Positions 6,528 to 64,000 of a DNA stretch of 64,000 bases are shown here, one piece after another (position 1 is the first letter of the stretch; every line of letters begins with the position of its first letter). The notes under the pieces were generated by a model. The model was not told where the DNA came from. It made no database searches and saw nothing but the letters and a program-made list of their open reading frames with translations. The DNA is from an uncultured Clostridia bacterium (GTDB lineage Bacteria; Bacillota; Clostridia; Christensenellales; Aristaeellaceae), in the NCBI GenBank assembly GCA_947166385.1, contig CAMVEB010000022.1, positions 1-64,000 on the forward strand. The letters run 5' to 3'. A program made the position numbers and the translations under genes.

Positions 6528-7265
<738 letters not shown>

Positions 7266-7267
7266 GC

Positions 7268-8344
7268 TTATTTCCCCTCCTTTGCCAGATTTTCCACCTG
7301 GGTGATGATCTCGCGCACGGTGGGCACAATGCCGCCAGTGCGGCCGAAGAAATGAACGGGCTTCCTGCCCTCGACGGCCAGCTTCACGTCATCCACCATC
7401 TGGCCCATGGACATTTCCACGGTCAGGAAGGCTTTGGCGTGCTCCGCAGCCTTCGCGATGGGGGCAGCGGGGAAGGGCCACAGGGTGATGGGCCGGATCA
7501 GGCCGGCACGGATGCCTTCCGCCCGGAGCTTGCGCATGGCGCTGCGGGCGATTCGGGCGGTGGTACCGTAGGCTACGATCACGTAGTCGGCATCATCGGT
7601 CAGCTCTTCCTGCCAGCGGCATTCCTCCCGCTCCATAACGGCGTACTTTTCGTACAGGTGGTTGACATGCTTCTCCAGGACGGCGGGATCAATGTACAGG
7701 GAATTGATCACAGCCCGATCCCTGCCGCAGCCGGGCTTCCAGCCGGTGGCCGCCCAGGTTTTGGGCGGAAGATCCGCCTGCTGTTTGCGCTCGGGCATTT
7801 CCACGGGCTCCATCATCTGACCGATCAGACCATCGCCCATGATCAGCACGGGATTGCGGTATTTATCAGCCAGGTCGAAAGCTTCCTGCGTGAGCTCCAC
7901 GGCCTCCTGCACGGAGGAAGGGGCCAGCACCAGCATCCGGTAGTCGCCATGGCCGCCACCGCGGGTGGACTGGTAGTAATCGCTCTGGGCAGGCTGGATG
8001 GAGCCCAGACCGGGGCCGCCGCGCACCATGTTGACGATGACGCAGGGCAGCTCAGCACCGACGATGTAGCTGATGCCTTCCTGTTTCAGGGAGATTCCGG
8101 GGCTGGAAGAAGATGTCATGACCCGGGCACCGGCACCGGCCGCGCCGTACACCATGTTGATGGCGGCCACTTCGCTCTCCGCCTGCAGGAAACAGCCGCC
8201 CTCGATCTTCGGGAGCCGCTTGGACATGTACTCGGGAACCTGGTTCTGGGGGGTAATGGGATAACCGAAGAAGAAGCGGCATCCGGCCTGGATAGCGGCT
8301 TCAGCGATCGCTTCATTCCCCTTCATGAGCATTTTTTCACCCAT
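7268..8344 (-). CDS. vorB: 2-oxoacid:ferredoxin oxidoreductase, alpha subunit (VorB-like)
   Basis: [67 protein letters not shown]. Confidence 0.88.
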
Positions 8345-57601: not shown

Positions 57602-57824
57602 CTGGTGGAGCATAGTGGAGTCGAACCCCGTCTCGCTGCGCTTCGCTTGCTCGGTCAGGTTCGCAATAGTCGGCTGTCTTCTCTGCCGTTCGACAGCCTT
57701 CTTTGCTCACCAGGCTTCCGCCTCGCTTCATCCGCCACTGGCGGCGCTTCGGCTACGCCCCTCTCCAATGCATTCAGTGCAATGACGGGGCAGGGGATGC
57801 GGACACTCCGTGCCCGCATAAAGA

Positions 57825-57855: not shown

Positions 57856-57860
57856 CTTTG

Positions 57861-57933
57861 TGGAGCATAGGGGAGTCGAACCCCTGACCTCGACAATGCG
57901 AATGTCGCGTCCTCTCACCCTCCCCTGTATTCC
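57861..57933 (-). pseudogene. Degenerate tRNA-like sequence with CGC in the anticodon position
   Basis: Minus strand: GGAATAC AGGGGAGGGTGAGAGGACG CGACA-TTCGCAT-TGTCG AGGTC AGGGG-TTCGACT-CCCCT ATGCTCC A, 73 nt; intact anticodon and T arms, no D arm. Confidence 0.55.
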
Positions 57934-59882: not shown

Positions 59883-60126
59883 TCCAGCTCCGGCCCCTGA
59901 ACCCACTCCCGCTCCAATTCCTGACCCCCCGCTGCCCCCTCCGACCCTGAAGGAAGTCCGGGCGCTCCTGACGGTCAAGTGCGCGGAGGGCTACGGCAGC
60001 CAGGTCCGGGCGCTCATCGCGTCCTTTGGCGCGACCTCGCTCTCCGGCGTCCCGGAGGCATCCTATCAGGATCTGATGGACGCGGCCCAGCTCCTGGGAG
60101 AGGGGGAATCGCCCGATGCCGGCTGA
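59782..60126 (+). CDS. Phage-associated protein of unknown function
   Basis: Pro-rich linker then LKEVRALLTVKCAEGYGSQVRALIASFGATSLSGVPEASYQDLMDAAQLL; overlaps the next gene start. Confidence 0.65.
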   Translation: MTDRKDLRAGIEQMRSVAQLLLLWAKDLEQSLTDPAPAPEPTPAPIPDPPLPPPTLKEVRALLTVKCAEGYGSQVRALIASFGATSLSGVPEASYQDLMDAAQLLGEGESPDAG

Positions 60127-61249
60127 CCACGCGTTTCTTTCTCCCTCCTCCTTGATCCGCTGGTATTTCTGCCCGCCGTCCGCGCGGCTGTGCGATCAGT
60201 TCCCGGATCAGGGGAGCGTCTTCGCGGCGGAGGGTACGGAGGCCCACGCCCTCTGTGAGTACCTCCTGAAGTCCGCCCTCGGCCGGCCCTGCGTCGATCC
60301 CCGGCCCTCCCTGCAGTACTATACCCCGGAGATGGAGGAATCCGCGTCCGGCTATGTCCAGTACATCCTGGAGAAGGTGGAAGCCCACAAAGCTGCCGCC
60401 GGCCTGTCGCCCTCCGTCTTCGTGGAGCAGCGACTGGATCTCCGGGGCTACATCCCGGAGTCCATGGGCACCGCCGACTGCGTGATCATCGCGGGCGATA
60501 CCGTGGAGATCATCGATTTCAAGTACGGCATGCACCGGGTCCCGGCCACGTCCATGCAGCTCCGGATCTACGCCCTCGGCGCCTGTGAGGTGTTTTCCGC
60601 CCTCTATGATCTGACCCGCGTCCGCATGGCGATCTACCAGCCCCGCCTCTCCTCCGTGGATGAGACGGAGATGACCGTCGCGGATCTCTATGCCTGGGCC
60701 CGCGCCGAGCTCGCTCCCCGCGCCCGCCTGGCTTTCGACGGGGCAGGGGAGTTCGCCTGCGGCGACTGGTGCCGCCTCTGCCGGGCCCGGCGCAGCTGCC
60801 ACGCCCTGGCGGAGTACCAGCTGGAGATCGCGAAGTATGATTTTTCCGATCCGGCGCTCCTGTCCGATGCGGAGATCGCCGATGTCCTCTCCCGGGTGGA
60901 TGATCTCGTCGCCTGGGCCTCGGATGTGAAGGACTACGCCCTCCGGGAAGCCCTGAAGGGCCACGCCTATCCCGGTTTCAAGCTCGTGGAGGGCCGGACG
61001 AACCGCCGCTTCACAGATGACGCCGCCGTCGCCGCCCGCGTGGAGAGCGCCGGCAGGGATCCCTGGGAGCGGAAACTCCTCGGCGTCGCCGCCCTGGAAA
61101 AACTCCTCGGCCGGAAAGCGTTCGCCGATCTGCTTTCCGATCTCGTCACCCGCCCGGAGGGCAAACCCACCCTCGTTCCCGTTTCCGACAAACGCCCGGA
61201 GCTGATCACAGCCCGGCAGGAATTCACAAATGAAAAGGAAGGTATCTGA
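60116..61249 (+). CDS. DUF2800 phage PD-(D/E)XK nuclease-like protein
   Basis: HAFLSPSSLIRWYFCPPSARLCDQFPDQGSVFAAEGTEAHALCEYLL; VEIIDFKYGMHRVPA; CxxC-type GDWCRLCRARRSCHALAEYQLE. Confidence 0.88.
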   Translation: MPADHAFLSPSSLIRWYFCPPSARLCDQFPDQGSVFAAEGTEAHALCEYLLKSALGRPCVDPRPSLQYYTPEMEESASGYVQYILEKVEAHKAAAGLSPSVFVEQRLDLRGYIPESMGTADCVIIAGDTVEIIDFKYGMHRVPATSMQLRIYALGACEVFSALYDLTRVRMAIYQPRLSSVDETEMTVADLYAWARAELAPRARLAFDGAGEFACGDWCRLCRARRSCHALAEYQLEIAKYDFSDPALLSDAEIADVLSRVDDLVAWASDVKDYALREALKGHAYPGFKLVEGRTNRRFTDDAAVAARVESAGRDPWERKLLGVAALEKLLGRKAFADLLSDLVTRPEGKPTLVPVSDKRPELITARQEFTNEKEGI

Positions 61250-61251
61250 AT

Positions 61252-61839
61252 ATGAGCAAGACTACCATGTCCCCCAAAACCCCCGTCTCCACCCGTATCG
61301 TCACCGGTCCCCGCACCCGTTTCTCCTATTGCCATCTCTGGGAGCCCCGCTCTTCCTATGGCAATGAGCCCAAATACTCCATGTCCTGCATCATCCCGAA
61401 GGATGATACGAAGACCGTCGCCCTGATCAACGGTGCCATCGAGGCGGCCTACCGGGAGGGCGAGGCCAAGCTGAAAGGGAAGGGCGCCATGCCGCCGCTG
61501 TCCGCCCTGCGGACGCCGCTGCGCGACGGCGACCTGGACCGCCCGGATGATCCGGCCTATGCCGGCTGCTGGTTCCTGAACGCCAGCGCCGCCACGGCGC
61601 CCGGCATCGTGGATGCCCAGGCCCAGCCGATCCTGGACCGCGCGGAGGTCTATTCCGGCTGCTACGGCCGGGTCTCCCTGACCTTCTTCGCCTATAACTC
61701 GAACGGCAACCGCGGCATCACCTGCGGCCTGAACAACGTCCAGAAGATCCGGGACGGCGAGCCCCTCGGCGGCCATATGAGCGCCGAGCAGGAATTCGCA
61801 GCCTTCACGGACGATGATGACGAGGATTTCCTGAACTGA
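61252..61839 (+). CDS. DUF2815/Enc34-type ssDNA-binding protein with acidic C-terminal tail
   Basis: RIVTGPRTRFSYCHLWEPRSSYGNEPKYSMSCIIPKDD...GRVSLTFFAYNSNGNRGITCGLNNVQKIRDGEPLGG; tail FTDDDDEDFLN*. Confidence 0.88.
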   Translation: MSKTTMSPKTPVSTRIVTGPRTRFSYCHLWEPRSSYGNEPKYSMSCIIPKDDTKTVALINGAIEAAYREGEAKLKGKGAMPPLSALRTPLRDGDLDRPDDPAYAGCWFLNASAATAPGIVDAQAQPILDRAEVYSGCYGRVSLTFFAYNSNGNRGITCGLNNVQKIRDGEPLGGHMSAEQEFAAFTDDDDEDFLN

Positions 61840-61849
61840 ACAGACAACC

Positions 61850-61874
61850 GGGGCGCCGCGGATCGCGGCGCCCC
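61850..61874 (+). terminator. Hairpin after DUF2815 gene (copy 1)
   Basis: GGGGCGCCGCG-gat-CGCGGCGCCCC, perfect 11-bp arms. Confidence 0.65.
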
Positions 61875-61954
61875 TGGCTTTTCTCTTCCAAACATTTCAT
61901 TGAGATTTTATGAATATTCTGGTATAATTCCATTATGGAAGGGAGGCAGATAAG

Positions 61955-62149
61955 ATGATCAATGAAAGGATTATTGTTCAGGACGCGTCTGAAACTGATC
62001 CCAATCTGCTCCGGATGCTGGACAGAGGTTTGGAAGATATAGAAGCCGGAAGAACGCTTCCCCATCAGGAAGCCATGGATGAAGTCAGACGAATTCGGGA
62101 AAACCGCCGCCAGGCAAGATCCAATATGGGAGCCGCGGCCAATGCATGA
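61955..62149 (+). CDS. Antitoxin-like small protein
   Basis: 64 aa; overlaps a RelE/ParE-like gene start by 8 nt; RBS gggagg. Confidence 0.65.
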   Translation: MINERIIVQDASETDPNLLRMLDRGLEDIEAGRTLPHQEAMDEVRRIRENRRQARSNMGAAANA

Positions 62150-62290
62150 TTATGATGTGGTATGGTCACGCGAATCCATCTATGATGTTGCGGACATTGA
62201 AATAGAAACTGTTTTTTTATTCGTGTTCTTCGTCACGAAAGGAACTGGCAGAAAATGCTTCGAGAGGGAATCAGCTATACCTTTGATTAA
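62142..62290 (+). pseudogene. RelE/ParE-type toxin remnant with internal deletion/frameshift
   Basis: N-terminus MHDYDVVWSRESIYDVADI in one frame and C-terminus RVLRHERNWQKMLREGISYTFD* in another. Confidence 0.7.
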
Positions 62291-62293
62291 GTG

Positions 62294-62355
62294 ACGAAGA
62301 TTTCCTGAACTGAACAGTGAACAGACAACCGGGGCGCCGCGGATCGCGGCGCCCC
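62294..62355 (+). repeat. Duplicate of DUF2815 3' end plus hairpin (copy 2)
   Basis: gaagatttcctgaactgaacag(tgaacag)acaaccggggcgccgcggatcgcggcgcccc, nearly identical to 61822-61874. Confidence 0.9.
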
Positions 62356-62412
62356 GTCGTTGCATATTTGCCATTTTGCCCTGATCTTCCTATAATAGAT
62401 GTTGAAAAGGGG

Positions 62413-62748
62413 GTGCGATCATTGAACCAGCCGATGTATGATGAATTGGTTCGCGGATTTCTGTCTGTTTTGCCGGATCAGATGGTTCGGGTTGTGTTAT
62501 ATGGTTCCACCGCCAGAGGGACTGCAGCCCCTGATTCAGATATTGATATTGCCCTCTTTGTCAGCAGCCGCCTTACGCCTGATCAGGAGGACCGGTTGTC
62601 AGATCTGATCGTTGATTTGAATCTGAAGTTTAACAGGATTTTCTCTGTTGTGGATATTGATCACCAGACCTATCTGAAGTGGCGTAATGTGACCCCGTTC
62701 TACCAGAATGTTGACAGGAAAGGAATCGTTTTATGGAAGGCAGCGTGA
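62413..62748 (+). CDS. MNT-type minimal nucleotidyltransferase
   Basis: VVLYGSTARGTAAPDSDIDIALFV (GSx10DxD); RBS aaaaggg before GTG. Confidence 0.88.
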   Translation: MRSLNQPMYDELVRGFLSVLPDQMVRVVLYGSTARGTAAPDSDIDIALFVSSRLTPDQEDRLSDLIVDLNLKFNRIFSVVDIDHQTYLKWRNVTPFYQNVDRKGIVLWKAA

Positions 62749-62874
62749 GGCAGATAAGATGATCAATGTACACCGTTCCAATGTCCGCCGAGCAGGAATT
62801 CTCCTCCTCCACGGATGACGTGGTTGAGGTTAATCAAAACAATTGACAAATCACCGCGTATTTGCAATAATATG

Positions 62875-62998
62875 GATGCGGGGAGTAATCCCACGCGTAC
62901 CCGCCCAACGGAGTCGAGTGCTTAAGCGACTTGTAAAGTCGCCCGCAGCGGGGGGAAGCCGCCTTATGGCGGCTTTCGATGTTTATGGGGGCTTCCAG
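62875..62998 (+). ncRNA. Candidate structured leader RNA upstream of DUF3800 gene
   Basis: GCGACTT-gta-AAGTCGC (62926-62942) and AAGCCGCC-TTAT-GGCGGCTT (62956-62975) plus possible GCGGG/CCCGC pairing. Confidence 0.55.
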
Positions 62999-63726
62999 AT
63001 GGATGTTTTTGTTTATTCTGATGAGTCGGGTGTTTTTGACTGTTATCACAGTCAGTATTTCGTCTTCGGCGGTGTAGTTTTTTGGATAGCGCGATGATGG
63101 AATCCGCTGCCAGGAGATATCTGACCATTGAGAAAGAAATCCGAAAAGAGAACCTGATATCTCCGGAAGACGAACTGAAAGCCAGTAATCTGGAGAGGAA
63201 GAATCAGCGAAGACTTTTCCGTGCAACGAATCGGGAATTCCGTTTCGGTGTTGTAGTTGAGATTCCAAAGCTGAAGATTCGCTGGCAGATCGCGGACGAT
63301 AAGAAATCAAGACAGCGGTATATGGACTTTGCATACAAGATTGCGATCAAACGATTCTTTGCTTCTTTAATCCGGGATGGAGCTATCAACCCGGCTGAAA
63401 TAAACACGATTCATTTTTTCACTGATCAGCATACGACGGCTACGAATGGCCGTTATGAACTGCATGAGAGTCTTGAGCAGGAATTGATCCGTGGTTCATT
63501 CAATTTTGAAAAGCAAATATTTCATCCGCTACTTTTTCCAGCTGCCAAATCGATCACATTAAAGTATTGCGATTCAAGAAAGGTGGTTATGATCCGGGCA
63601 GCGGATATCATTGCGAACCGGATCTATCATCTTGCGCAAACTGGAAATCTGCGATATGAAGAAAGCCCGCACTTTTATGTCTATGCACTTCCGGATAACG
63701 ATCTGAAAAAAGAGTTGCAGGATTGA
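62999..63726 (+). pseudogene. DUF3800 protein, interrupted by one apparent 1-nt frameshift
   Basis: N-terminus MDVFVYSDESGVFDCYHSQYFVFGGVVF in frame of 62999, then LDSAMMESAARRYLTIEKEIRK... to 63726; shift at T-run 63078-63083. Confidence 0.8.
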
Positions 63727-63926
63727 AAATGAAAAAGGCGACAAAGCAATCAGAAAGGTACCTGAGGATAGAATACCGTTGACACCTCTGCGGATTGATC
63801 TCAGAAAGTATCTCCGGTACGCGGAAGAAAACAATATTACTGATCTGTCTGATATTCCGGATGAAATCCTGGATACATTTATGCTTCCTGAACAGCCCGG
63901 GAGTATCGCTCAGTAGTATAGTTCCC

Positions 63927-64000
63927 ATGTCCACCAAACTGAAATCCTTCACCTTCACGGACAATGAGGATTTCCTGAACTAAACACCCCCGGGGCGCTG
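63927..64000 (+). repeat. Further copy of DUF2815 C-terminal-tail sequence, cut by window edge
   Basis: MSTKLKSFTFTDNEDFLN* followed by ccccggggcgctg, paralleling FTDDDDEDFLN* plus hairpin at 61798-61874. Confidence 0.8.

Follow-up and report, generated by a model that had tools for sequence, protein, structure and literature searches.

The last 20 codons of a prophage single-stranded DNA-binding protein (SSB) gene and the GC hairpin behind them have three further occurrences downstream of the gene, and three cargos are stacked along the same segment: a toxin–antitoxin (TA) pair, an MNT nucleotidyltransferase, and a unit made up of DUF3800-I RNA, DUF3800 gene and small ORF. The explanation that we put first, and to which we give an even chance, is that the cargos form a tandem array of phage morons, each reaching from promoter to stop codon, which accumulated by recombination at the 3′ end of the SSB gene. 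What would be new in this reading is the tandem arrangement of morons with copies of the end of the recipient gene between them, seen in one MAG. The window, that is, the whole stretch of DNA analysed, comprises bases 1–64000 of the 66,814-base contig C22, which belongs to a 4.33 Mb MAG of a gut bacterium.

Most of contig C22 consists of host genes, and host-like genes are found again after 64.0 kb. A prophage remnant occupies ~58.0–61.84 kb and contains a zinc-ribbon ORF, two ORFs common to prophages of the same kind, DUF2800 and DUF2815; based on profile matches, the DUF2815 product is an SSB and annealing protein of the Enc34/T7 gp2.5 type. The features of this part are the following:

57605–57629 and 57860–57884, minus strand: two copies of the tmRNA 3′ end at the left edge of the prophage remnant, spaced 255 bases apart.
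60116–61249, plus strand: DUF2800, phage RecB-like exonuclease (PF10926, 428 bits; phrog_69 exonuclease).
61252–61839, plus strand: DUF2815, Enc34-type SSB, intact, 195 aa (PF10991, 238 bits; phrog_112 Gp2.5-like ssDNA binding and annealing protein).

The two tmRNA 3′ ends are likely to be relics of attachment sites, left by one or more integrations at ssrA, and their position to the left of the remnant fits integration of the prophage at that gene. The replication genes which usually follow the SSB are missing from the prophage remnant of the window, and the gene expected next is lost; the prophage has decayed and is clearly a remnant. The SSB tail is the acidic C-terminus, which in the Enc34 SSB influences the preference for single- or double-stranded DNA (PMC5686142), so that a whole tail kept at the head of the array is expected under selection.

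Concerning the repeats, the copy on the SSB gene itself serves as the reference (R1) and those downstream are numbered R2 to R4:

61777–61874, plus strand: R1, found in the repeat search, with the coding tail MSAEQEFAAFTDDDDEDFLN, the stop codon and the GC hairpin at 61850–61874.
62292–62356, plus strand: R2, the last SSB codons and a hairpin identical to that of R1, directly behind the toxin stop codon (alignment, shuffles).
62781–62835, plus strand: R3, a truncated, diverged SSB tail without hairpin, which abuts the DUF3800 unit (alignment, shuffles).
63918–64021, plus strand: R4, a diverged SSB tail, VPMSTKLKSFTFTDNEDFLN and stop codon, with hairpin; the window cuts it at 64000 (alignment, shuffles).

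Likeness to R1 drops with distance: R2 matches it over 64 nt at 88%, including 38 of 38 identical bases (TGAACAGACAACC and the hairpin), R3 over 49 nt at 76% and R4 over 102 nt at 70%. R3 corresponds to the upstream part of the tail only, the SSB match ending at 62829, and R4 to the whole tail minus 2 codons, with a complete, diverged hairpin beyond the window end. The significance of the tails was assessed by comparing local alignment scores with those of 500 dinucleotide shuffles; the scores are 49 for R2 (shuffle maximum 18), 26 for R3 (17) and 37 for R4 (19). The repeats are thus found, all above the 500 shuffles, where the first-pass annotation had placed them; the hairpin which it assigned to them is present in R1, R2 and, past the window end, R4, and is absent from R3.

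A fifth tail copy is found on contig C8 (75794–75930), with 81% identity over ~134 bases and an alignment score of 61 against a maximum of 20 in 500 dinucleotide shuffles. It lies behind a BrnA-like antitoxin ORF, whose BrnA score of 22.9 is just below the Pfam cut-off of 26.1, and it extends beyond the hairpin into TA promoter sequence, yet is more diverged than R2. When 98 related SSB ends and R1 are compared, the best match of each tail copy is R1, and therefore the tail copies are one lineage. R2, R4 and the C8 copy start at most ~25 bases from a cargo stop codon; the 5′ limits differ among R2, R3, R4 and the C8 copy.

The cargo units and the signals in front of them are, in order:

61900–61928, plus strand: TA unit promoter TTGAGA-17-TATAAT (11/12; motif scan), where homology to the G012 copy begins.
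61955–62149, plus strand: antitoxin, 64 aa, homologous to the G012:C46 antitoxin (alignment).
62142–62294, plus strand: remnant of a ParE-family toxin with ~186 bases lost internally (compared with the intact G012 copy, PF05016).
62368–62396, plus strand: MNT unit promoter TTGCCA-17-TATAAT (11/12; motif scan).
62422–62748, plus strand: MNT-type nucleotidyltransferase, 108 aa (PF18765, PF01909).
62731–62768, plus strand: TA leader and start, repeated between MNT and R3 (repeat families D7 and D11).
62843–62871, plus strand: DUF3800 unit promoter TTGACA-17-AATAAT (11/12; motif scan and G036 alignment).
62871–62987, plus strand: DUF3800-I structured RNA (RF02969, 72.2 bits; Rfam gathering score 44.2).
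62965–63726, plus strand: DUF3800 gene, frameshifted near 63080 (PF12686; alignment with the intact 248-aa G036 copy).
63779–63916, plus strand: small ORF of 45 aa with no Pfam match, behind DUF3800; R4 starts a few bases after its stop codon.

A predicted near-consensus sigma-70 promoter with a 17-base spacer follows each of R1 to R4, at 61900, 62368 and 62843 (11/12 each) and at 64062 (10/12), and after R1, R2 and R3 the promoter is followed by AT-rich cargo. On the plus strand of the 66.8 kb contig 11 promoters score at least 10/12, and four of them stand just behind the four tails; four promoters within 2.3 kb amount to ~10 times the average density on this strand. That separate cargos lie between the copies of the SSB end, as had been proposed, is borne out, each having a predicted promoter and low GC. 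Their description needs some changes: the TA pair has the antitoxin and the ParE-family toxin homology, but it is broken by the toxin deletion, and the RNA is indeed DUF3800-I, while the DUF3800 gene behind it is frameshifted. The cargo is therefore decaying. The best PADLOC match of the MNT protein is PDC-S09 (1e-20), and against the MntA_antitoxin model it reaches 42.9 bits, under the cut-off of 60. The extra TA leader at 62731–62768 probably remains from a TA-like unit now gone, which suggests the loss of a further cassette between MNT and R3.

Two of the units have copies elsewhere. An intact TA, with a 65-aa antitoxin and a ParE-family toxin, is found in G012 (C46), where the gene order, with names given by inspection, is primase, VRR-NUC, SNF2, RinA-like, TA, ORF, MNT; the DUF3800 unit is intact in G036. 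The unit borders were set by alignment of the window with these copies, including long flanks. The TA unit is homologous from 61900 onwards and the DUF3800 unit from 62836, in both cases from the −35 box or a few bases before it, and no SSB tail is present near either copy. The tails are consequently a property of the SSB locus and not of the cargos, and the suggestion that each cargo regenerates the tail, read as a cargo trait, is not supported: the recipient locus is the source of the tail. DUF3800-I elements were also considered as carriers of the duplication and were rejected, since the two other copies in 200 relatives do not have comparable flanking gene-end repeats. In the sister prophage on G012:C46 (L080, 689–1960, minus strand) the intact TA is followed by a different MNT, which is the order of the window at another phage position.

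The same order of TA and MNT in another place can be read in favour of local duplication only, in which tandem duplication or slippage copied the SSB end and its terminator as the prophage decayed, and the cargo was pre-existing or independent. All tails are nearest R1 and not other phage SSBs, and the prophage is clearly a remnant, which also suits such a history. Local duplication does not, however, account for the position of the copies between a cargo stop codon and the next promoter, or for the C8 copy standing behind a different antitoxin; we consider it possible but doubtful. The agreement of the cargo borders with independent copies also bears on the assembly. The MAG consists of 96 contigs with 4.4% contamination, and short repeats might have joined unrelated fragments; the exact repeat, however, is only 38 bases long, most copies have diverged to 70–88%, and several separate junctions would need to be wrong. 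An assembly artefact is thus very improbable.

The first-pass annotation had read the array as repeated insertion or recombination at the SSB end, and this stands: the pattern needs several events, and an intact SSB is kept at the head. Less can be said for the recombinase which it expected. No tyrosine or serine recombinase is found on contig C22 (there is no PF00589 match), and the differing 5′ limits of the tails give no evident site-specific core. Site-specific accretion would have the SSB tail and hairpin as the attachment site of small elements that integrated in tandem, with the integrase acting in trans. The 38 identical bases in R1 and R2 include a palindrome, the 3′ end of the gene is restored, and the genome has 21 tyrosine-recombinase matches elsewhere, all of which agree with such a route. 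Against it are the variable tail starts in R2, R3, R4 and the C8 copy, the missing hairpin of R3, the recombinase-free contig, the tail-free TA and DUF3800 units elsewhere, and the fact that none of the 98 relatives has repeated tails. We regard it as unlikely, and as less likely than recombinational displacement of 3′ ends. On contig C47 (4378–10056, plus strand) there are six consecutive tyrosine recombinase genes with sizes roughly repeating in threes, which looks like two tandem recombinase-in-trio elements.

The array was also compared with known systems of small tandem units, and it is neither an array of integron cassettes nor one of tandem integrative elements as these are defined. Like tandem integrative elements at gene 3′ ends, it has a restored gene end and direct repeats between the units, but it has no integrase on the contig and no constant core, and its units measure only 0.4–1.1 kb. 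It shares with integron cassettes the small size of the units and the palindrome-bearing repeats between them; it differs in having no IntI nearby, a predicted promoter for each unit and a repeat that is a protein-coding tail, and in that the TA (G012) and DUF3800 (G036) units have no attC-like repeat borne by the cassette.

Phage morons are a closer match. In their working definition they have their own promoter and terminator and a deviating composition, and they are inserted between phage genes and absent from relatives (PMC2147016). The units of the array share the predicted promoter of their own (10–11/12 before each unit) and the deviating GC, which is 0.44–0.46 in the cargo vs 0.64 in phage genes and ~0.62 in R1 and R2, and they are likewise absent between the same two genes in relatives; they thus largely fit the definition. 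They differ from morons in being arranged in tandem, with separators or terminators that are copies of the coding tail and terminator of the recipient gene. As judged from sequence, the duplicated SSB end could be the terminator of the preceding unit for two of the three units: the GC hairpins of R2 and R4 stand behind the TA and DUF3800 units, MNT is followed by the hairpin-less R3, and the hairpins have no long T run.

For the manner of growth, the nearest likeness is with the orphan immunity arrays of the Vibrio cholerae type VI secretion system (T6SS), and also with orphan Rhs/CDI tips, in which serial addition takes place at a gene 3′ end with one-sided anchor homology (PMC5361080). The model proposed for T6SS effector loci is that homology anchors the upstream side of the incoming DNA and that its downstream side is joined illegitimately, which moves the old 3′ ends downstream (PMC5361080). 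The window likewise has an intact gene at the head (R1) and partial ends downstream (R2–R4). In the T6SS arrays, however, a new 3′ part replaces the old one, whereas the SSB gene retains its tail and its cargo bears no relation to it.

Under the moron array, the recombination that brought each unit in would have made use of the SSB tail or terminator, or have broken within it. One complete tail would stay on the SSB gene, and a second, partial tail would be displaced beyond the cargo, where, usually with the terminator, it would now end the transcript of the cargo upstream of it. We infer that homology anchored one side of each event and that the other side was joined illegitimately, a route also proposed for orphan immunity and Rhs arrays; host RecA or the adjacent exonuclease and annealing protein of the phage itself may have carried the events out, or a homing endonuclease cut at the SSB–polymerase junction may have helped. 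Decay of the prophage and of the cargo came later. Counting against the simple form of this model are the occurrence of one array in one MAG and the lack of a hairpin in R3. The C8 copy includes part of the R1–TA junction and yet has diverged further than R2, which makes this junction look older than the R1–R2 duplication; an order with the newest unit nearest the gene therefore fails, unless the hairpins were homogenised later. Later exchange between copies, together with decay, could account both for the divergence of the C8 copy and for the loss of the hairpin from R3.

The wider distribution was examined in 98 other DUF2815 loci, 80 of them from IMG/VR and most of the others from prophages of the genus. 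None of the 98 has a second copy of its own SSB end in the downstream sequence compared, which often reaches only ~4 kb past the gene and in some loci less, so the tail-duplicating array is found in 1 of ~99 comparable phage loci. Among 45 genomes of the genus, tail copies are present in that of the window only, and no viral contig matches the tail–hairpin pattern. The idea of a general hotspot at this gene end is rejected on these grounds. In most relatives the SSB is followed by DNA polymerase A as the next conserved gene, after a gap of 0–950 bases which contains small membrane ORFs, hypothetical genes or HNH endonucleases. Five of the 98 loci (L028, L109, L116, L119 and L160) have a NUMOD4-HNH homing-endonuclease ORF between SSB and polA, an assignment confirmed by Pfam for one of the five. 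Comparing the DUF2815 3′ flank across genomes, as had been advised, gave variable inserts and no cargos bounded by repeats: the SSB–polA junction takes inserts, and the tail-duplicating array is peculiar to the genome of the window. A recombinase-free cassette system of phage SSB-type gene ends, in which units reaching from promoter to stop codon are repeatedly added with a duplicated coding tail and terminator of the recipient and so come ready-insulated, is an improbable generalisation.

Four prophage remnants of the genus (L025, L026, L036 and L038; L026 is a short contig and L038 has a partial SSB gene only) have DUF2800 and/or the SSB without the usual next polymerase and without tail copies. 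No empty site or intermediate was found, and the host genes of the left and right flanks are not adjacent in the relatives examined. The hairpin alone was rejected as a marker, since the hits of a covariance model of tail and hairpin were for the most part ordinary GC-rich terminators of the genus, and an R4-like match in G012:C1 lies inside a sugar-permease gene and was set aside as chance.

Ideas on how phages acquire accessory genes one by one while leaving essential genes intact are drawn largely from single insertions. The locus preserves several steps of gain in a row, with scars that mark the start of the unit (promoter) and the source of the terminator (end of the recipient gene). If similar arrays exist, unit order and scar divergence would be a direct record of gene gain; if they do not, the locus is a well-preserved curiosity of one decayed prophage.

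Concerning the RNA of the third unit, in L078 (G074, ~7171–7836, minus strand) a DUF3800-I RNA (RF02969, 64 bits) is found directly before a SocA/Panacea antitoxin-like gene (PF13274). As this gene and not DUF3800 stands behind the RNA, the DUF3800-I class is not tied to DUF3800, and it may be a leader of toxin–antitoxin-like genes.
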